Virus record (IMG/VR): IMGVR_UViG_3300002145_000146
Coordinates: 1 to 23,102 of that record
Direction: 5' to 3' (one strand)
Source: a virus
DNA: 23,102 bases
This document shows, one piece after another, positions 799 through 23,102 of this stretch (within the stretch, counting starts at the first letter, position 1; each line of letters starts with the position of its first letter). The notes beneath the pieces are model-generated. The model was given only the letters and a program-made list of their open reading frames with translations. It had not been told where the DNA came from and made no database searches. The translations under genes were made by a program, and so were the position numbers.

Positions 799-1038
799 TT
801 AGTTCTTTGACTGATTATTTATTGCTTTTATTAAACTTAAAACTAAGGTTTTCAAATTACTCAGTTCTTCTTTGATCTCATGTATTTCAGAGGTAGTATT
901 TTGTGCTACCTCTCTTTCTTTTTTCAATTTTTCTCTTTGAGCTAAGTACTTTTGACAATTAGAATTGTCAGTGCTGATTATAGCCTTTGAGTATTCGTCT
1001 CTAATCAGCCCTGGCTCGTTTTCTACTTTTATGGGCAT
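799..1038 (-). CDS. Small coiled-coil protein of unknown function, 79 aa
   Basis: This small acidic and lysine-rich protein begins MPIKVENEPGLIRDEYSKAI. Residues about 30-75 are rich in E, K, L and I with a heptad-like pattern, so a coiled coil is likely. No signal peptide or membrane segment is visible. Its start overlaps the end of the upstream 2026-aa gene by 10 bases, which implies co-translation. Short proteins with a similar N-terminus (xVKVExxxxLxRDxxSxA) occur near structural genes of T4-like phages as I recall them, but I know of no assigned function. It may be a small structural or assembly protein. Confidence 0.7.
   Translation of the reverse strand: MPIKVENEPGLIRDEYSKAIISTDNSNCQKYLAQREKLKKEREVAQNTTSEIHEIKEELSNLKTLVLSLIKAINNQSKN
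816..823 (-). promoter_or_regulatory. Possible late promoter for tail fibre gene (AATAAATA)
   Basis: The minus strand reads AATAAATA, one mismatch from the T4 late promoter box TATAAATA. It lies 32 bases upstream of the tail fibre ATG, a spacing close to the other candidates in this window. It is inside the last codons of the 79-aa gene, so it could also be chance in AT-rich coding sequence. Confidence 0.35.
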
Positions 1039-4000
1039 GCAATAATTCTTAGATCTTTAATTAATGGAACCCAAGCAGTTGATGTGCTTCGAAGTACGAT
1101 CTTTACAGCTACTGTAGTAAATGCTGGTATATCGTCAATCTCATATTCAACATCAGTAAAGAATGTTTGATCTTGTGTCTTAACAATATCAGACAACGGT
1201 GAAGTAAATTGTATCCAATTTGTATCAAACAAACTACCTGTACCAGTTCTATAATAGACATCAATATTTGCTTGTTGAGGAACTGTTGCTGCAAACATCA
1301 CTTTTAAATACTTTGAAGAATTCTTCAGATTCAACTGTCTTGTAATATACTTTGCAGCAGCACTACCATTTCTAGGTGCTCTTTCATCAATAAAGTTTTC
1401 TCTAACAATTAGAGTAATAGCATTTCCTGTACTCTCAGTTGCAAACGGATAAAAGCATAAAATGTTTGCAGTACCAGCAATATTTGTAACTCTAGAAACA
1501 ACAACTATAGCATTATTTGTAGGATTACCAGCACCTTCTATAGAAATTGTTTTACCTGCATCAATCGATGCCAATAAATTAGCAACTGTTCCATTTGTAG
1601 TAGTGATAGTATTACCACTAAATGAAAAACTAGTATTACCTGCGATAACTGTTCTATATGCATAGAACAAGTTTTTCTGAGTAGCAACAGTACTGTCAAT
1701 TGCGTTTTTAACTAAAATTACTGAATTTCTATTCAAATCGATAACAGGTGAAACACTATCATTGGTTGAAGATATTACTGCTGTAATTTTCAGAGATTTA
1801 TCATCTGCTGCAGTACCAAGTTGATTGTTATCTGCTCTGATAACTTTTTCGATATCAAAAGCATTATTTCTATTTGGTTGAATACTAGTTGCAGTAGCAC
1901 TTCTTGCTGCGCTCAGTGTTGAATCTGTTGTGTATGCATTGAATCCAATTGCTGTTTCAGAGAATGTTTGATATTGAATTATTGGATGCATAGCATTAAA
2001 TGCTTTGTTTTCAGTAGCCACAATACCAGTTCCACCCAAAAAGGTAGTTGTCGTAGCAGCATTTGATGCTACAATAGTGTATGTGTCAATGAATACATTA
2101 CTTACTGTGTGAGTTTTGTTAATCTCTCCAGCAGTCACATTGCCCTGTGTGCTATATCCAGATATAGTTACATTTGAACCATTAACAAAACCATGATCTG
2201 GATGTGAAATAGTTACTACTGCAGAATTATTTGTTAACTTAATTGGATTTCTTGCTAATGTAACTGAAGGAACTTTTTCATTCACAAAAGACACAGTTGC
2301 ATCTGTGTTTGCTGTATCAAATACTGCACGATATAAAGTAAACTTAAGATCTTGTAATTGATCAGCAGTCCATGTAGAAGCATTTTGTGACTTAAATAGT
2401 GAACCTAAAGCTGGTTGCCCTGAAATGATTCTATCAGTACCAACCATGGTTTCACCCACTTGTGAAATCCAAACTCTATAGTTAAATGAATCTGTTAGAA
2501 CAACAACAGCATACTCTGCACCATCTTGAAGATATACTGGACTTCTAAATGTAAATGTTGTTGCAACACTTGCATCATCAGAAACAGCAACCTCTTGTGG
2601 AATCTTAAACACTGTAGAGAATGGAAGTACTCGTTTACCAGGATATCCGTTGACTACATCACGAATCTCTATTTTTACTGGTATATTTGCGTCTTTTGTT
2701 GCAAAAAACAGATCAATTTTAGTTAGAAAACATCCGCCTCTTTGATCTACGACAAAGGTTTGTGCTAGTGGTTCATCACCGTCACCTCCATCATCGCCGC
2801 CATCATCATCTCTGAAATTTCTATTAGAAATAATGGTGTCGTTAGATTGAACAATAACTTGCTGATCAGTAACTGCTTCTCTTACAAATTCAGCTGATCT
2901 TGTTGAAACTACAGTTGATTGTTTAGTCTCTAAAACACCTGCTGCAGTATATGTTGCAGTTGCTCTAGTTGTAAACACAGAACTATTTGTAGATGAATCT
3001 GTAAGTTTTAGTTCTCTTGAACCTGTACGGAATCTGATTGAATCTGTATTTGGAATATCAAATACACCAGCAATATCACCATTTACGTTGGTTACTAATG
3101 TTGAACCTTCAGCTACCACAGAAACATCAGAAACTAATGTTGCAGTTGCACCTGAAATAGATCCTTTAACTTGATTGCCTGCCTTCAACTCACCTTGAAT
3201 GTTAACTAGATGCAGAATATTTCCTGAAGAACTATTTTCAACAAAAGCAACCACTCCACTACCATTTGATGTTGCTTCTGTATAAGCACCCGAATTGTAG
3301 ATATAAACAACATCACCGCGGTTAAATGCTGGATCAGGATTATTATCTTTTCTTCTTCTATTTCTTGATGCTTCAGTATCAAAAGTTTCTGCGTTAGTTA
3401 GATAATCAAACACACCAGATACGCTTGTTAGAGATGCTTTTGCAGCTGGAGTAACATAACTACCAACTGATACACCATCAAAAAATGCATAAACATTGGA
3501 GTTGGGTTTCATTCCTCTAGCTAAAAACATAACATCCCTTGATCTAATGAAGGGAATTGCTGCTACAGAAATTACTCTATCCTCTAAAACTCTACTATCA
3601 ACTTTAGCAACAACCGATGTACGAACACCTGTTCTTGCTTGTCCAATTTGTGTAGTTTCACGTTGTAGTGTAAGATTTCTTGCTCTAGCATCTTCATCGT
3701 CAACAAACTGAAGACCTAAATCAATTGTTTCGATTTGAGGAGTTCCTACCCACTGTGTTTCCCAAGCATTCCAAATAGTACCTAATACTCCAGATGCTTC
3801 AGCACTTGCTCTGATTGAATCGAAGTTACCATCATTATTAATGATAAGATCTGGGCGACGAGCAGTCTCAAACCATTCATCTGATGAAGGAGTTAATGTA
3901 AATCTGCCATTAAAGTAAGCTACAGAAAATGGATTTACGTTTTCAATTCTAGAAGCATATGGTTGTGTAATCAGAGGTGTATGTGTGTATCTTAGTGTAA

Positions 4001-7000
4001 CTAAATCACCTGTAACTTGATACTTCGAAGTAATTCTAGAAGCTTCAGTATTGTTTTCTTCAACTAAATTGATATTATTCATAAAGTAGAATGGACGTAG
4101 TTGATTATTTTGCATATCAACTGCGCATCTATAATCAGAAGCATAAACATCACCAACACCATGACCTTCAAAATTGTCAACAATAAATCCATTCTTAAAA
4201 CGATCTAAACCTTCAGAATCAAGAATAGTTAAAGATTTAGTTTCTTGTTCTAATAGATTTAAAGCAGTATAATATTCTACCTGATTTAGACGTTTTTCTA
4301 GCGTTCCAATATCACGCATAGTGTAACGTTTATTGTCAATATAGGTAAAAGTTACATCTGGTGTTTTTGGTGTTACTGTGTATGGTTGTAGATTTAATTT
4401 GTAAAGAGGCATTCCTAATGCTGGATCATTTGGTTCTGGTGCTGTTAACGCAGAAGCACCATTCAGAACATATAGATTGCCGTTAGGATCAAGAACAATT
4501 TTATCGTTTCTTGGTAAATAGTACTGATAATCAAAGTTAGTTTGAAATCCTCTTCTTGGTAGAGCTGTATCAGAACTACCTGTTCCAGAAAAGTTTGTAT
4601 TTGTATCATCTTTTCTAGGTCTAAAATCTAAAACATCTGTTAATCTAATAGAATAATTTGTTCCATAAAATGTAGGAACATCACTTCTTTGTACTGTACT
4701 ATATGAGTTTGCTGAAAAGTAATCACCCGAGCCGTGTGCAAAGTAACGATAAAAGATAGTAATGTTACCTGAAGGTACTGGATAATTAGGTTTCTTAATT
4801 AGTTTAGCAGTATCATAATGAGTAGATTTTTGTCCATTATCAAGTGTGAACCAATCGGTAATATCAATAGTGTTACCTGTCATTTTTACACTGTCAATTT
4901 TATAAACATCTGCTTTGTTTAAAAAGATTGAAGATTGACTGTAAAGTGCTGAATCTGCAATAGTTAATGTTGTAATAGTAGGTGTTTTAGTTTTAGCATC
5001 AGCTGTTTTTACAATAGGTAAAATAACTGTGAAATTGTTTGATGGAGTTAGACCTGTAATAGAAATACTACCTGAGGTAGTAACAATTGTTGGATTTTCA
5101 ATTGCGCCTGTAGTTCTATTGATTACAACATAATCTGTTGCTAGTGCAGAAGAATTGTAAGTATCACCAGTAATTGACAATGTTCCGCCGCCTGCTGATG
5201 TTCCTTCAACCGCTTTTGTAACAGTATACGTAGGATCTTCTGTTTGCTTAATTGCAAAGTATGGAAAATCAAATAACAATTGTTGTAGTTCTGCTTCATA
5301 TAATAGTGCTTCTATTCTATAGGGTATAGAAGCAGTTATGGTTGCAGAATTATCAACTGTTAAACTATAATCATCAGTAATTCCGACTACTTTTCTTCTA
5401 CCTACAGATGGATTGTTAAAGTAGATCCAATCTCCGATAGAGAGTTCGGTTGTAAATTTTGTTCCTGATCCTACTACTGATGTAGATGCTGTAGCTGTAA
5501 TAGTACCTGATAGTTGAATATATTCGGGAGAAATATCAGCAGTAAATGCTACTCCAGCTGCAACGTTACCAATCTGTTTGACATTTCTAGCAAATGATTT
5601 ACTAGAATTCATACTAATATCAAACAGTGATAGTTTAAATATTCCTGCAGTAGTTGCAGCATTTCCTGAATCATATGTCAGATCACGCACACGAGCAGTA
5701 CCAACGACATTAGCCGTAACTGCACCCCGAGTAACAGTAAACGAATCATATAAATTTACTGTTCCGAAACTGGTTATACCTAAAGTAGCAGTAGCATTTG
5801 CGAATACGTTAGCAACTTTTATGTAATTACCGACAGTAGTTGCAATTATATCATTAGTTACAGATGCGGTAGCTCTTGCTTTAGAAACAGGAATATACTC
5901 AGTAGAAATCTTTTCAATCTCATAACCCTGAACATAAGCCTTACCTGGCTCCAAACCAATTGCTAATTTAGATTCATCACCATTTAAATCTGCACTAAAT
6001 ACCCCCTGATTGTAAACAGGGTTTTCACTATAGAACCATTCAATAGAACCATCACTTACAGATCCACTAATATGTGTTGGTGCAGTAGAACCTGTAGTGC
6101 CAGAACCTAATGAAACATAAGAATTACCACTATAGGCAATAACATCACCTACGAGTATATTTGCTTTAGACGCTGTCCATGAACCACGATTATTATCACG
6201 ATGTTCTCTAATTTGAATTCTAAAAGGTCTTACTGTATAATTACCAGATTCATCGTATGTTCTACGTGCAAGTGTTCTCTCTAAAACAGAGTATTCTGTT
6301 CTATTGACAAGATTTTTAATAATACCAGATTCAATTCTAGAAAGTTCAATAAAATCTTGATCTAGAGTAGAAGTCAAAGAGAGTTTATCTAGAGCAATGG
6401 ATATCTTATAACGATGGGCACCAGGTGCGTTTTCATTAAAAGATCCTTGTGCATTATCAACTAATGTAGAATCATCTTCCTCTGTAATAAAATCTTCTGT
6501 TACAGCCAAACCAATTCTGTATGAGGGTGTACTACTATACTTGTCTAGAACAATACTTTGTGTATTGATTGAAACAAAGTTTCCTAAAACAAAGTAAACA
6601 CCAGATTCTATCGATGCAATAGAACTATCTGTAACTGCACTAGATGCGATTGTTGTAAGTGTTGATGCTGATCCTGAGATAGAAAGTGTTTCACCATTAT
6701 CAAAAATTGTTTTTTGATTATTAGTTCCTGTTTTTAGAAACTTTACAATCAAAGTTGGTGAATCTGATCCCTCAGCATTTACTGCTTTAACAACAGATGC
6801 AACAACACCTGATGTATCACCAGTAACTAAAATGTTAGCACTTGCAAATGTTGTTTGCAGATTTAAAGCAGTTGCTTCTAATTTTACAGCTTTAACAGTT
6901 TGATCAATTGAAAGTTGCCCAGGAATAACCATCGCACCTTCTTTGAATAGATGGCGTCCGAATCTTTCAATTTGTTTCTGTAAAATTGTTTGTAACTGTG

Positions 7001-7109
7001 TTAACTCTCTAGCTTGAACAGCAACACCTGGTTTAAAAAGAATACGATGATACCCCTTAGATTCATCGTAATCATCGAAATAAGGCTCTACATTGAAATT
7101 TACTGTCAT
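1029..7109 (-). CDS. Giant DUF4815-type baseplate/virion structural protein, 2026 aa
   Basis: The N-terminus carries the block KPGVAVQARELTQLQTILQ followed by RFGRHLFKEGAMVIPGQ (residues about 27-66), which I recognise as the DUF4815 family of T4-like marine phages. In those phages it follows gp8 and is a virion structural protein, probably replacing T4 gp10-type peripheral baseplate components. The rest is Ser/Thr/Ala/Val-rich beta-type sequence. Around residues 1433-1446 is a short Asp/Gly tract (DDDGGDDGGDGDE). It leads into a segment EPLAQTFVVDQRGGCFLTKI typical of phage fibre-like proteins. Residues about 1621-1693 hold a small HGF...G module also seen in two neighbouring wedge proteins. 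The start follows AAAGAGAAACC and lies 12 bases after the original gp8 stop codon. The exact position in the virion is inferred. Confidence 0.85.
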   Translation of the reverse strand: MTVNFNVEPYFDDYDESKGYHRILFKPGVAVQARELTQLQTILQKQIERFGRHLFKEGAMVIPGQLSIDQTVKAVKLEATALNLQTTFASANILVTGDTSGVVASVVKAVNAEGSDSPTLIVKFLKTGTNNQKTIFDNGETLSISGSASTLTTIASSAVTDSSIASIESGVYFVLGNFVSINTQSIVLDKYSSTPSYRIGLAVTEDFITEEDDSTLVDNAQGSFNENAPGAHRYKISIALDKLSLTSTLDQDFIELSRIESGIIKNLVNRTEYSVLERTLARRTYDESGNYTVRPFRIQIREHRDNNRGSWTASKANILVGDVIAYSGNSYVSLGSGTTGSTAPTHISGSVSDGSIEWFYSENPVYNQGVFSADLNGDESKLAIGLEPGKAYVQGYEIEKISTEYIPVSKARATASVTNDIIATTVGNYIKVANVFANATATLGITSFGTVNLYDSFTVTRGAVTANVVGTARVRDLTYDSGNAATTAGIFKLSLFDISMNSSKSFARNVKQIGNVAAGVAFTADISPEYIQLSGTITATASTSVVGSGTKFTTELSIGDWIYFNNPSVGRRKVVGITDDYSLTVDNSATITASIPYRIEALLYEAELQQLLFDFPYFAIKQTEDPTYTVTKAVEGTSAGGGTLSITGDTYNSSALATDYVVINRTTGAIENPTIVTTSGSISITGLTPSNNFTVILPIVKTADAKTKTPTITTLTIADSALYSQSSIFLNKADVYKIDSVKMTGNTIDITDWFTLDNGQKSTHYDTAKLIKKPNYPVPSGNITIFYRYFAHGSGDYFSANSYSTVQRSDVPTFYGTNYSIRLTDVLDFRPRKDDTNTNFSGTGSSDTALPRRGFQTNFDYQYYLPRNDKIVLDPNGNLYVLNGASALTAPEPNDPALGMPLYKLNLQPYTVTPKTPDVTFTYIDNKRYTMRDIGTLEKRLNQVEYYTALNLLEQETKSLTILDSEGLDRFKNGFIVDNFEGHGVGDVYASDYRCAVDMQNNQLRPFYFMNNINLVEENNTEASRITSKYQVTGDLVTLRYTHTPLITQPYASRIENVNPFSVAYFNGRFTLTPSSDEWFETARRPDLIINNDGNFDSIRASAEASGVLGTIWNAWETQWVGTPQIETIDLGLQFVDDEDARARNLTLQRETTQIGQARTGVRTSVVAKVDSRVLEDRVISVAAIPFIRSRDVMFLARGMKPNSNVYAFFDGVSVGSYVTPAAKASLTSVSGVFDYLTNAETFDTEASRNRRRKDNNPDPAFNRGDVVYIYNSGAYTEATSNGSGVVAFVENSSSGNILHLVNIQGELKAGNQVKGSISGATATLVSDVSVVAEGSTLVTNVNGDIAGVFDIPNTDSIRFRTGSRELKLTDSSTNSSVFTTRATATYTAAGVLETKQSTVVSTRSAEFVREAVTDQQVIVQSNDTIISNRNFRDDDGGDDGGDGDEPLAQTFVVDQRGGCFLTKIDLFFATKDANIPVKIEIRDVVNGYPGKRVLPFSTVFKIPQEVAVSDDASVATTFTFRSPVYLQDGAEYAVVVLTDSFNYRVWISQVGETMVGTDRIISGQPALGSLFKSQNASTWTADQLQDLKFTLYRAVFDTANTDATVSFVNEKVPSVTLARNPIKLTNNSAVVTISHPDHGFVNGSNVTISGYSTQGNVTAGEINKTHTVSNVFIDTYTIVASNAATTTTFLGGTGIVATENKAFNAMHPIIQYQTFSETAIGFNAYTTDSTLSAARSATATSIQPNRNNAFDIEKVIRADNNQLGTAADDKSLKITAVISSTNDSVSPVIDLNRNSVILVKNAIDSTVATQKNLFYAYRTVIAGNTSFSFSGNTITTTNGTVANLLASIDAGKTISIEGAGNPTNNAIVVVSRVTNIAGTANILCFYPFATESTGNAITLIVRENFIDERAPRNGSAAAKYITRQLNLKNSSKYLKVMFAATVPQQANIDVYYRTGTGSLFDTNWIQFTSPLSDIVKTQDQTFFTDVEYEIDDIPAFTTVAVKIVLRSTSTAWVPLIKDLRIIACP

Positions 7110-19513: not shown

Positions 19514-19957
19514 ATGTATAAGAACACTTATAAGGGAAAGTATTCGGTTAAAAATCCTAAGAAATATCGAGGAGATATCAACGAAATTTCTTACCGTAGT
19601 TCTTGGGAGTTGGGGTATATGAATTGGTGTGATCGCACTGATGCTGTTCTAGAATGGGGTTCTGAGGTGGCAATAATACCATATATCTCACCAATAGATA
19701 GAAAAGTACACAAATATTATGTAGATTTCTACGTGAAAATTAAAGATACACATGGCAATATAAAGAAATATCTGATTGAGATTAAACCCAAGAAATTCAC
19801 ACAAGAACCGATTAAACCTAAAAAAATGACAAAGCAGTTTATTCAAGAGGTCTATACTTATTCTGTCAATCAGGCTAAGTGGAAAGCAGCTAGAGAATTT
19901 TGTGCAGATCGTGGATTTGAATTTTTAATATTAACAGAAGAGGAACTAAAAGTATAA
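19514..19957 (+). CDS. gp4: Head completion protein gp4, nuclease-like
   Basis: At 147 residues it matches T4 gp4 (150), which acts at the portal end of filled heads before tail joining. The sequence shows a PD-(D/E)xK-like core: Glu32 in SSWELGYMNW, Asp71 in KYYVDFYVKI, and Glu89/Lys91 in YLIEIKPKK, as in TnsA-type endonucleases. The C-terminal helix AKWKAAREFCADRGFEFLIL and TEEEL fit the same family. It is the first gene of the rightward block. Its stop and the next start share a base (TAATG), so translation is probably coupled. No clear ribosome site precedes the ATG. Nuclease activity is inferred from motifs. Confidence 0.88.
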   Translation: MYKNTYKGKYSVKNPKKYRGDINEISYRSSWELGYMNWCDRTDAVLEWGSEVAIIPYISPIDRKVHKYYVDFYVKIKDTHGNIKKYLIEIKPKKFTQEPIKPKKMTKQFIQEVYTYSVNQAKWKAAREFCADRGFEFLILTEEELKV

Positions 19958-20526
19958 TGGCAAAGAATCCCTTTGAGGATCTGAGAGCTTTACCTAGTGA
20001 TGCAGATAAATCTATTAAATGGTTTAGAGAGCAGATTAAGGATATCTCTGCAAGATCTCTACGTCCACAAAATCTGATGAATCAGAAAGATCAACTAACA
20101 AAAACACTAATACCTGGTAATCTTTATCTGTATTATTATGATCCTAAGTTTAAAGAAGAACTTCCTTTCTATGACACATTTCCTCTAGTATATCCATATA
20201 GAAAGTTTTCAGATGGATTCATGGGGTACAATCTACATTACCTTCCACCAGTGATTAGATTCAAATTGATGGGTGTTCTAATGAACATCAGTATGTCTAA
20301 TGATACTGAAAGAAAAAAGGAAGCATATGCTTTCGGTGTAATGAATTCTGCAGAACTAAATAAATACTTCGCACCATGTATAAAGAGATATTTGGCGGCT
20401 CATGTAAGAAGCAACTTTTTAAAGATACCTTCAGATTCTTGGTTACATGCTGCTTTATTACCCACAGAAAGATTCGCTAAAGCCAATAAAGGCACTGTTT
20501 GGAAAAACACGATGGATAAAGTATAA
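19957..20526 (+). CDS. T4-like virion-associated protein of unknown function, 189 aa
   Basis: I recall this family from many T4-like phages by its central block: GNLYLYYYDPKFKEELPFYD, then FPLVYPYRKFSDGFMGYNLHYL (residues about 54-95). It is usually labelled hypothetical or structural. No catalytic motif or membrane segment is clear. It is flanked by gp4 and a tail-tube-fold protein, with TAATG stop-start overlaps on both sides, so the three are probably made together. A role in head-tail joining or tail assembly is possible from context only. AGAGGA lies about 12 bases before the ATG. Confidence 0.75.
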   Translation: MAKNPFEDLRALPSDADKSIKWFREQIKDISARSLRPQNLMNQKDQLTKTLIPGNLYLYYYDPKFKEELPFYDTFPLVYPYRKFSDGFMGYNLHYLPPVIRFKLMGVLMNISMSNDTERKKEAYAFGVMNSAELNKYFAPCIKRYLAAHVRSNFLKIPSDSWLHAALLPTERFAKANKGTVWKNTMDKV

Positions 20527-21239
20527 TGGCAAACTTTTCTATAGAGAACTTCAAATCTGAGGTATTTAACCGTGGTCTAGCTCGCCCAAATCGTTTTGAA
20601 GTAGAGTTACCAACAATTCCTCGCTGGGAACCTGAAGCAAGATTATCGGCATTGTTCTGTGAAGCTGCCGTATTTCCTCCTCTATCTATTTTAAATAGAT
20701 CTATGAGAATACAGGGTCCAGTATATACTCGAGGAACAAGTGTTGATTATGGTGGAATAGTTACATTAACATTTTTGTTAGATACAGAAATGTTAGTTCG
20801 TCGATATTTTGAATTTTGGTCAACGTTAATTATAGAACCTGCAACTTTCAACGTAGGGTATCATAGTGATTATGCAAAATCTATTGTTCTGCATCAGTTA
20901 GATACAGACAAAAGAAATAAAGATAAACAAATTTATACTATCAAATTAATCGATGCCTATCCGTCAGTAATCGGTCAGTTAGATTTAACTAATACAAGTA
21001 CTAATGATGTCCATAGATTACCCGTATCTTTTGTATATCGTTACTGGGAATCATATGATATCAAAAATGATTCTTATTATAAAGCAGATATCTCTGGACC
21101 TACAGAAAAATTAACATCATTTGAGCCAGAAATAAAAGCAGCTATACCTAGAACAACTATAGAACAATTACCAGGTGGTACTGTTGAAGTTGGCCCAGGT
21201 GGAGCAGTATTTAACGTAAGAAGAAATAGAACTAGATAA
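20526..21239 (+). CDS. Tail-tube-fold protein, probably baseplate tube initiator (gp54/gp19-like)
   Basis: The N-terminus FKSEVFNRGLARPNRFEVEL matches the RGLARPNxFxVxI pattern of T4-like tail tube proteins. The middle has beta-rich tube features (LSALFCEAAVFPPLSI, YTRGTSVDYGGIVTLTFLLD, LIDAYPSVIGQLDL). At 237 residues it is larger than T4 gp19 (163) and smaller than gp54 (320). It lies with hub genes (gp26, gp51) and away from the sheath and portal genes that normally flank gp19, so I favour the tube initiator gp54 or a specialised tube paralogue. The C-terminus is Gly/Pro-rich and basic. It overlaps the upstream gene by one base (TAATG). Confidence 0.65.
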   Translation: MANFSIENFKSEVFNRGLARPNRFEVELPTIPRWEPEARLSALFCEAAVFPPLSILNRSMRIQGPVYTRGTSVDYGGIVTLTFLLDTEMLVRRYFEFWSTLIIEPATFNVGYHSDYAKSIVLHQLDTDKRNKDKQIYTIKLIDAYPSVIGQLDLTNTSTNDVHRLPVSFVYRYWESYDIKNDSYYKADISGPTEKLTSFEPEIKAAIPRTTIEQLPGGTVEVGPGGAVFNVRRNRTR

Positions 21240-21243
21240 TATT

Positions 21244-21248
21244 GGGAG
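21244..21248 (+). promoter_or_regulatory. Ribosome binding site setting the gp26 start
   Basis: GGGAG lies 5 bases before the ATG at 21254-21256. It rules in that ATG over an in-frame TTG at 21242, which would lie on top of this site. Confidence 0.8.
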
Positions 21249-21253
21249 ATTGT

Positions 21254-21952
21254 ATGTCATCATTACCTAAATTAAATGTACCTACCTTTGAATTGACTTT
21301 ACCATCAACTGAAAAGAAGATTAAATATCGTCCTTTTTTGGTTAAAGAACACAAAACATTACTGATTCTCAAGGATGCTGAAGATGCAGATGTTATTCGT
21401 ATTCTAGAAGAACTCGTGGATGTTTGTACTTTTAATAAACTAAGAACAAAAGATTTACCTAGTTTTGATCTAGAATATATCTTTTTAAACATTCGCGCAA
21501 AATCTCTGGGTGAAATGGTAGAACTTATCATCACATGTGACTGCGAAAATAAAATTGAGTATACCATGGATATTACACAATTAAAAGTTAGTAAAAATTC
21601 TAATCATACTAATAAATTCATGATTGATAATGAAATTGGTATAGAAATGAAGTATCCGAGGTTTACAGATACAATGGATATCTTTTTAACCAAAGATGAA
21701 AGTAAAATATTTGATCTTATTCTTTCATGTGTTAAGGCTGTTTATACCAATGACGAGTATACAGAGATTACTACAGATAATCAGAAAGATTTGATTGAAT
21801 TTTTAGAAAGTATGACACAGGAACAGTTTGATAAAATTGAACAGTTTTTTGTTACGATGCCTAAACTTAGGCATGAGATGAATGTAAAATGCGATAAGTG
21901 TGGAGTAGAAAACCATGCTGTTCTGGAGGGATTGCAAAATTTTTTCGTATAA
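21254..21952 (+). CDS. gp26: Baseplate hub/tail assembly chaperone gp26
   Basis: At 232 residues it is similar to T4 gp26 (208). It begins SSLPKLNVPTFELTLPSTEK and has the typical YRPFLVKEHKTLLIL segment. Two Cys pairs, C95xC97 and C213xxC216 (VKCDKCGVEN), could form a zinc ribbon. The C-terminal EGLQNFF is followed by V and a stop. gp26 is needed for hub assembly in T4. The gene lies between a tube-like protein and a tape-measure-like protein, the usual place of tail assembly chaperones. Its last codons contain a slippery run with a downstream hairpin. A -1 shift there would join residues 1-231 to 62 residues of gp51, giving a 293-aa fusion. Confidence 0.82.
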   Translation: MSSLPKLNVPTFELTLPSTEKKIKYRPFLVKEHKTLLILKDAEDADVIRILEELVDVCTFNKLRTKDLPSFDLEYIFLNIRAKSLGEMVELIITCDCENKIEYTMDITQLKVSKNSNHTNKFMIDNEIGIEMKYPRFTDTMDIFLTKDESKIFDLILSCVKAVYTNDEYTEITTDNQKDLIEFLESMTQEQFDKIEQFFVTMPKLRHEMNVKCDKCGVENHAVLEGLQNFFV

Positions 21953-22134
21953 CTCTAGCGCGTGACTCGCTAGAGGATTACTACACTACAAACTTTTCAT
22001 TGATGCAACATCATAAGTATAGTTTAGCAGAATTAGAGAATATGATGCCATGGGAACGAGATATCTACGTTATTTTATTGATTAATCATCTACGTGAAGA
22101 ACAAGAGAAACTTAGACAACAAGCAAAGAGATAA
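21898..22134 (+). CDS. gp51: gp51-like hub assembly protein; start uncertain, likely made by frameshift from gp26
   Basis: The conserved part is ITLARDSLEDYYTTNFS through LMQHHKYSLAELENMMPWER and DIYVILLINHL, then a charged tail; this is the short gp51 type of T4-like marine phages (T4 gp51 is longer, 249 aa). T4 gp51 is a catalytic factor for hub assembly. The coordinates use the first in-frame start, GTG at 21898, which overlaps gp26 by 55 bases, has no ribosome site and gives an unlikely N-terminus (MWSRKPCCSGG). No ATG, GTG or TTG lies in this frame between there and the conserved block. The frame is exactly -1 to gp26. I think the conserved 62 residues (from 21946) are made as a fusion to gp26. 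Confidence 0.75.
   Translation: MWSRKPCCSGGIAKFFRITLARDSLEDYYTTNFSLMQHHKYSLAELENMMPWERDIYVILLINHLREEQEKLRQQAKR
21925..21975 (+). promoter_or_regulatory. Candidate programmed -1 frameshift signal joining gp26 to gp51
   Basis: Four elements line up. An SD-like GGAGGG is at 21925-21930. Two overlapping slippery heptamers are in the gp26 frame: A_AAT_TTT at 21937-21943 and T_TTT_TTC at 21940-21946. A 6-base spacer (21947-21952) contains the gp26 stop. A perfect 8-bp hairpin CTCTAGCG/CGCTAGAG follows at 21953-21975 with a 7-base loop. A -1 slip enters the gp51 frame at CGT 21946. The elements are seen directly; frameshifting itself is inferred. Confidence 0.75.
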
Positions 22135-22138
22135 AGTA

Positions 22139-23102
22139 ATGACACCTAGTTTTAATAAAGATTTGTCTAAAATCATGGCATCTATAGTGCCTACGGATGC
22201 ATCTGCTTATGGTGAATCTACTATACAGGTTGGTTCTGATAAAAAAGTACAACCTAAGAAATCCTCTTTTAGTTCTGTGGGCTCTACAATACTAGATTTG
22301 TTAACAGGTGAGTATGCAAAGAATCAACCATGGTCAAAAAATGATGAAAAGGATAAAAAAGATTCAAAAAAAATATCTGATCCTATAGTTAAAAAATTAG
22401 ATGAAATAAAAAATATTCTTAAAGAAGTATTGCAAAAAACTAAAGATTCAAAACAAGAAGCTAAAAAAGAAGCTGAAAAACTTTTTAAGCAAAAATCACA
22501 AACATATGAAAACAGAACTGTAGCTAGATCAACACAACCAAGTAGTAGTAGTATTACACCAACTACGTCTATAGTAACTAAATCTGTAGCTACAGAACAA
22601 AAAATTCCCACAGTTACAAATCAAGATAAACCTGAAGAATCTAAAGATGAACCTACAGATGGAAGAAGTGGTTTATTTGATTTTTTAACTGATAAAACTA
22701 AAGGTGTAGGTAAAACAGCAGGAAAAGTTTTAAGAAAAACAGGTGATTTATTTAAAAAAATTAATCCTGGTGTGTTGAAAGGCGGAGCTGCAGCTTTAGG
22801 TGGATTAGCTTTAGGTGCTGGTGCTACGAAATTAAAAGAGAGTGGTTATGAAAAACTGGGTGGCGCTACTGATATTGCATCGGATGCCTTAACTTGGGGA
22901 GGGACTGGTGCTGCATTAGGTAGTGTTATACCTGGAGTAGGTACTGCAATAGGTGCTGGTGTAGGAGCGGTTGCAGGCGGTGCTTATGGACTTTATAAAA
23001 ATTGGAACAATATTTTTGGTAGTAAAACAGATAATGTAAAATCTGCGGCTGAACAGAATAAAAAAAATAAAAAGCCCACTTATATTAATGAAGAAGGCAA
23101 GG
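22139..23102 (+). CDS. Tape-measure/hub-like tail protein, N-terminal part (cut by window edge)
   Basis: The frame is open for 321 codons from ATG 22139-22141 to the right edge. Residues about 60-125 are a Lys/Glu-rich helical or coiled-coil stretch, followed by a Ser/Thr/Pro-rich linker (about 130-175). Two Gly/Ala-rich glycine-zipper segments follow: about 211-229 (GVLKGGAAALGGLALGAGA) and about 254-286 (including GVGTAIGAGVGAVAGGAYG). Such hydrophobic segments next to coiled coils are typical of tape measure proteins, which fill the tail tube and enter the host membrane. It lies directly after gp26/gp51, where tape measure genes usually lie. In T4 terms it may correspond to gp29 or a hub protein, but I cannot identify it by sequence. 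AGAGATAAAG is a weak ribosome site before the ATG. Confidence 0.65.
   Translation, partial: MTPSFNKDLSKIMASIVPTDASAYGESTIQVGSDKKVQPKKSSFSSVGSTILDLLTGEYAKNQPWSKNDEKDKKDSKKISDPIVKKLDEIKNILKEVLQKTKDSKQEAKKEAEKLFKQKSQTYENRTVARSTQPSSSSITPTTSIVTKSVATEQKIPTVTNQDKPEESKDEPTDGRSGLFDFLTDKTKGVGKTAGKVLRKTGDLFKKINPGVLKGGAAALGGLALGAGATKLKESGYEKLGGATDIASDALTWGGTGAALGSVIPGVGTAIGAGVGAVAGGAYGLYKNWNNIFGSKTDNVKSAAEQNKKNKKPTYINEEGK

Follow-up and report, generated by a model that had tools for sequence, protein, structure and literature searches.

Gene order and the gp26/gp51 junction

The window, i.e. the whole stretch of DNA analysed here, is a virus record of 23,102 bases with kinship to marine T4-like phages, and the annotated proteins closest to its gp26 (about 44% identity) come from cyanophages such as S-PM2; a search of genome contigs for relatives found none. 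Near its end, a tail tube gene (clear match to phrog_45), gp26, gp51 and a candidate tape measure gene (weak match to phrog_28, reading frame incomplete) follow each other in this order, with the following features:

20526..21239, + strand: tail-tube-like gene directly upstream of gp26 (phrog_45 tail tube, E 2.7e-35)
21254..21952, + strand: gp26-like gene, putative short tail assembly chaperone form, 232 aa (open reading frame; PF12322 T4_baseplate, E 2.4e-63; phrog_150, E 5.9e-68)
21925..21930, + strand: Shine-Dalgarno (SD)-like GGAGGG, candidate stimulator, 9 nt 5' of the slippery heptamer (sequence)
21940..21946, + strand: slippery heptamer T_TTT_TTC in phase with gp26 (in-phase TTTTTTN in relatives)
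21940..22134, + strand: gp51 or 'T' domain as an extension in the -1 frame, FFRITLARDSLEDYY...QQAKR (phrog_634, E 1.1e-30; phrog_150 columns 227-278)
21950..21952, + strand: gp26 0-frame stop TAA, one codon past the heptamer
21953..21975, + strand: perfect 8-bp hairpin, candidate stimulator (folding and codon-preserving test)
22139..23102, + strand: start of a long open reading frame, candidate tape measure protein, incomplete at the window end (phrog_28, weak match, E 6.4e-5; position)

Homology to the T4 gp26/gp51 family is evident from PF12322 in case of gp26 and from phrog_150 and phrog_634, and a profile of the fusion matches T4-type gp51. The gp26-like gene has a ribosome binding site, GGGAG, at 21244-21248, and the -1 frame ends with a stop codon at 22132-22134. 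Elsewhere in the window, a head closure (gp4-like) gene at 19514-19957 also matches a TnsA-like endonuclease N-terminal domain (PF08722, E 1.6e-21), and a structural-looking open reading frame of 2026 aa, by far the longest of the window, lies on the minus strand at 1029-7109.

At the junction, the gp26 frame reads ...GAG GGA TTG CAA AAT TTT TTC GTA TAA, and the -1 frame reads TTT TTT CGT ATA ACT CTA GCG CGT GAC TCG CTA GAG..., translated as FFRITLARDSLEDYYTTNFSLMQHHKYSLAELENMMPWERDIYVILL...; in the window, the gp51 domain can be reached only via the gp26 frame by a shift of -1. A preliminary description of this DNA had proposed a -1 frameshift signal between gp26 and gp51, composed of two overlapping slippery heptamers, an upstream GGAGGG and a downstream hairpin. 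In the raw sequence, all of these elements lie where it had placed them, with GGAGGG at 21925-21930 and thus 9 nt before T_TTT_TTC, and the gp51 frame is exactly -1 relative to gp26, as judged from open reading frames and translations. The recomputed lengths of the products agree as well, with 293 aa for the joined gp26-gp51 product and 232 aa for gp26 alone. Both heptamers are present, but only one of them is conserved: A_AAT_TTT occurs in a minority of relatives and was rejected as main shift site for this reason, whereas T_TTT_TTN is the conserved site. A lone slippery heptamer is unremarkable, as there are 49 in-phase X_XXY_YYZ sites in the approximately 6,900 codons of the window and TTTTTTC is not over-represented, and the case therefore rests on conservation and context. 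One further in-phase heptamer, T_TTT_TTG at 21334-21340, lies within the conserved RPFLV motif of gp26.

Conservation of the slippery site in relatives

Relatives were collected in two ways. The set selected by gp26 comprises 99 sequences (98 loci and the window), 83 of which are non-redundant at 85% identity. An in-phase heptamer lies shortly before the stop codon in 97 of the 99, the two exceptions being the T4-type phage AR1, in which gene 25 follows gp26, and the Ackermannvirus Vi01. All 83 non-redundant relatives have an in-phase T6N heptamer (TTTTTTC 71, TTTTTTT 11, TTTTTTA 1), and in nearly all relatives the 0-frame stop is found 0-1 codons past it. The second set was picked by the gp51 peptide beginning after Phe-Phe, so that a selection by gp26 was avoided. 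Here TTTTTTN is in phase in 80 of 80 loci (68 C, 9 A, 2 G, 1 T), and a gp26-frame open reading frame precedes the heptamer in each of them. In 11 of these loci (TTA or TTG), the second residue is changed to Leu while the T6 run is retained, which means that nucleotides rather than amino acids are conserved at the heptamer. As an internal control, another conserved Phe-Phe pair, some 30 codons farther upstream, is encoded by T_TTT_TTY in 0 of 73 cases.

The arrangement is also kept in the isolates S-PM2, P-HM1, Melnitz, KVP40, LPCS28, AS-szw, EniLVp02, phiWae14 and phiN3. An alignment of junctions from related phages, which the preliminary description had suggested as a check, thus bears out both the slippery run and the -1 phase. 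The slip signal is kept in every examined relative outside the T4 branch and is almost certainly real.

The gp51 frame and the lack of a good start codon

In all loci, the -1 frame is free of stop codons from the slip (codon 0) to codon +58. The amino acids of this frame are conserved from the slip onwards and third codon positions vary, as in protein coding; selection thus acts at the protein level from this point. Is gp51 then a gene in its own right, for which ribosomes re-initiate, or use a weak gp51 start, after termination of gp26? Public annotations give gp51 its own coding sequence, and in about half of the loci an ATG lies 5-8 codons past the slip, from which a weak independent initiation is conceivable in some loci. 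However, between the upstream -1 stop and codon +30, an SD-preceded start codon is absent in 79 of 83 loci and present in 4 of 83, which answers the question of the preliminary description whether gp51 has a good start of its own. The position of the start is not conserved either, the first ATG being scattered over +5, +8, +20 or +21 in most loci and lying 21 codons past the slip, within the conserved domain, in the window; yet the residues before the start are conserved back to the slip. As a separate gp51 gene would moreover leave the in-phase heptamer and the hairpin unexplained, we regard it as very improbable. Programmed frameshifting, on the other hand, would explain why a good gp51 start codon is missing in the examined genomes of cyanophages and marine phages.

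In public records, the gp51 start is placed arbitrarily within the gene (S-PM2, Melnitz, S-T4), or gp51 is omitted (LPCS28, AS-szw), which points to a systematic annotation error; the mis-annotated loci include L009 1717, L011 1747, L018 1759, L013 and L106.

Downstream hairpins and the SD-like element

In the window, CTCTAGCG (21953-21960) forms a perfect stem with CGCTAGAG (21968-21975), with a loop of 7 nt and a spacer of 6 nt from the heptamer. This hairpin folds with -14.0 to -14.2 kcal/mol, as compared to -4.2 +/- 2.2 kcal/mol for 500 recodings under which the -1 peptide stays the same, which puts z at about -4.5 and p at about 0.002, and its z is -2.8 relative to dinucleotide shuffles. 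The preliminary description had considered such a stem unlikely to arise by chance and its GCG and TCG codons out of place, and both views hold: GCG makes up 6.7% of the Ala codons and TCG 4.0% of the Ser codons of the window, GAC is at 10.9%, and all three occur in the stem.

Also in the relatives, there is RNA structure beyond the need for coding. The mean folding z of 40-nt segments is about -0.3 along gp26 and falls to -2.2 for segments that start 5 nt past the heptamer, a peak of structure that is confined to this place. With codon-preserving recoding of the 83 loci, the mean z is -2.3 just past the heptamer, as opposed to +0.3 to -0.7 at twelve control positions, with about -0.3 at most of these. 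Individually, downstream structure is significant in 32 of 83 loci at p<0.01 and in 45 of 83 at p<0.05, and as about half of the loci are without an individually strong hairpin, the hairpin is not universal. The hairpins belong to several sequence families and registers that are mutually unrelated. Compensatory changes, for which the preliminary description had proposed to look, were found in two families, in which 98.9% and 96.0% of cells are paired with both sides changing, whereas a partner slid by one base reaches at most 66%. At U_UUU_UUU sites, the mean is -5.0 kcal/mol, compared to -9.5 kcal/mol at U_UUU_UUC sites (83 loci; p 0.0014, uncorrected for shared ancestry), suggesting that a better slippery site requires less structural help, i.e. 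that slippery-site strength is traded against the hairpin.

The SD-like element, which the preliminary description had wished to see examined, is enriched in relatives: the Glu codon that forms it is GAG in 48 of 64 relatives, compared to a background of 26% (Fisher p 1.6e-15; like all p-values across loci, this one is inflated by the shared phylogeny of the relatives). An internal SD-like element and a downstream hairpin, candidate stimulators in the manner of dnaX, are thus both present and enriched in relatives.

A proposed frameshifting mechanism for gp26/gp51

These sequence comparisons make it very probable that gp26/gp51 is one gene that gives rise to two proteins by programmed -1 ribosomal frameshifting, in the manner of a lambda G/GT-like tail assembly chaperone. 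Most ribosomes would end translation of gp26 at the UAA (21950), with the short chaperone of 232 aa as product. A minority would slip back by one base on U_UUU_UUC while the hairpin holds the ribosome and the internal SD-like GGAGGG probably promotes the slip; these ribosomes would read on into gp51, resulting in the gp26-gp51 fusion of 293 aa. By analogy to lambda gpG and gpGT, the short form may coat the tape measure protein, and the extra domain of the long form may recruit tail tube subunits. That slippage occurs, how efficient it is and how the labour is divided between the two forms is what we infer.

Could the RNA polymerase instead slip on the T run and thereby generate mixed mRNAs, so that the ribosome would not need to shift? 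The shift site is indeed a T run, and transcriptional slippage aided by hairpins is known from other systems, but a run of 6 T is short for such slippage, and the run has just 6 T in 164 of 177 loci. Every locus has its run in the sole codon phase that is fit for ribosomal tandem slippage, which a polymerase would not need, and the Ackermannviridae site has only TTTT. Transcriptional slippage, reviewed in PMC5009743, is therefore even less probable here than a separate gp51 gene. That an AT-rich poly-T run and an accidental hairpin came together by chance or by an assembly artefact, for which the commonness of in-phase heptamers in the window might speak, is refuted by conservation, as the same arrangement occurs in >160 contigs and in isolated phages, and we give this practically no credence.

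The AlphaFold2 model of gp26 has a pLDDT of 88, and among solved structures it best resembles 3fgx (Z 7.3), 2ob9, the tail assembly chaperone (TAC) of HK97 (Z 7.2, 84 residues, rmsd 4.7), and 3klu (Z 6.5), whereby Z values under 8 may reflect a common arrangement. Neither gp26 nor the gp51 domain had a significant Foldseek match in the PDB, and a profile search of PDB sequences was likewise negative. We therefore treat gp26/gp51 as a tail assembly chaperone by its mechanism, as layout and expression logic are those of lambda G/GT, and less firmly by its predicted fold, for which the HK97 chaperone is among the top three.

Other branches of T4-related phages

The frameshift arrangement extends well beyond the cyanophages. 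The heptamer is T_TTT_TTC in KVP40, VS1, LPCS28, AS-szw, EniLVp02 and phiWae14, and it is T_TTT_TTT in Sinorhizobium phage phiN3; in all of these, gp51 is in frame -1. In Ackermannviridae (Vi01, locus L016 1790-1960; phiMAM1, locus L103), a gp51-like peptide is encoded in frame -1 directly past gp26, and the same holds for the unclassified phages TSW001 (L100) and D503 (L102), which fall into the tree group of the Ackermannviridae. All of these have a shorter run, NTT TTC, with U_UUC in the A-site, and gp51 is unannotated or annotated with an internal start. TSW001 and D503 have a strong hairpin, which in TSW001 (-19.8 kcal/mol) lies directly past the site.

The T4-type phages differ. In AR1, JS09, STP4-a and Acinetobacter phage DP45, gene 25 follows gp26, and there is no gp51 downstream. 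Their gp26 encodes Phe-Phe by TTC TTT without a slippery run, and DP45 has TTT GTT. T4-type gp51 is a separate, divergent gene in one uninterrupted frame, and it contains a gp26 domain (PF12322, E 1.9e-54, residues 1-201), followed by the extension domain across the junction. T4-type gp51 is thus homologous to the fused form, and because it combines both domains, the short and long forms of T4 come from two genes. The window does not have this layout with an uninterrupted long form. In-frame gp26-gp51 fusions, at which the extension in phrog_150 had hinted, are accounted for by T4-type gp51.

In an unrooted tree of 30 sequences, T4-type gp26 and gp51 group together and apart from all frameshift forms (94/87). 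This fits a duplication in the T4 lineage, although the direction of change is not proven by a tree that is unrooted and has long branches. As a tentative reading, which we hold at slightly less than even, the frameshifted TAC pair would be ancestral to the T4-related phages (here Kyanoviridae, non-T4 Straboviridae, Sinorhizobium phage phiN3 and Ackermannviridae), and the T4 lineage would have duplicated gp26, giving rise to a fused gp51, and lost the slippery run. The stimulatory hairpin would turn over rapidly, traded against the strength of the slippery site, and would be weak or absent at U_UUU_UUU sites. Programmed frameshifting would in any case locate the G/GT equivalent of the T4 superfamily, as it appears to be spread across marine and several other branches, with T4 looking exceptional. 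The >160 loci are a natural data set on the joint evolution of slippery site, SD-like element and hairpin.

Comparison with known frameshifting systems

In E. coli dnaX, the -1 frameshift is accompanied by an SD some 10 nt 5' of the heptamer and by a hairpin downstream, a combination that resembles the one found here. In contrast to gp26/gp51, dnaX is a cellular gene with the heptamer A_AAA_AAG, and its shifted product is shorter, whereas the gp26-gp51 product is longer.

Lambda G/GT likewise consists of a short chaperone and a -1 frameshifted long form, with the heptamer near the end of the first open reading frame and with a position between the tail tube gene and the tape measure gene (in the window a candidate with a weak match). 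The differences are the PF12322 family, the U_UUU_UUN site in place of the lambda site G_GGA_AAG, the SD-like element and the variable hairpins. The lambda frameshift has been described by Levin 1993 and Xu 2004, as reviewed in PMC5009743, which also states that long-tailed phages have kept the G-T frameshift, 'except T4'.

T4 gp26 and gp51 are homologous to the proteins described here, with T4-type gp51 made up of a gp26-like domain and an extension domain; they differ in that short and long form are separate, divergent genes and in that the shift site is absent. TACs of the T4 gp26/gp51 type were identified by Vladimirov, Gautam and Davidson (Virology 2022, 566:9-15), according to PMC10274946 and PMC12846349. 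Citing this work, PMC10274946 mentions that some T4-like phages use two genes in place of frameshifting, a short one and, separate from it, a longer fused one, and PMC12846349 mentions poly-T slippery signals in TAC-N genes of T4-like phages. Our literature search for a gp26/gp51 frameshift under those names, which covered Vladimirov et al. 2022 via citing papers only, found no description, and to this extent the preliminary description was right in not being aware of one. As TAC frameshifting is of a known kind, however, and as T4-like TACs and poly-T signals are on record in these sources, frameshifting in some T4-like TACs is likely already in print.

The -1 frameshift of Vandenendeviridae and Andersonviridae TACs at a GTTTTT motif (PMC12846349) again concerns a myovirus TAC with a poly-T site and a downstream open reading frame mis-annotated as a separate gene. 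These are other phage families, and the passages of that paper examined here contain no analysis of a stimulatory hairpin or SD. It is less likely that stimulatory hairpins, the SD-like element and their turnover have already been published, and in comparison to these known systems, the breadth of the arrangement, its fast-changing hairpins and the SD-like element may be new.
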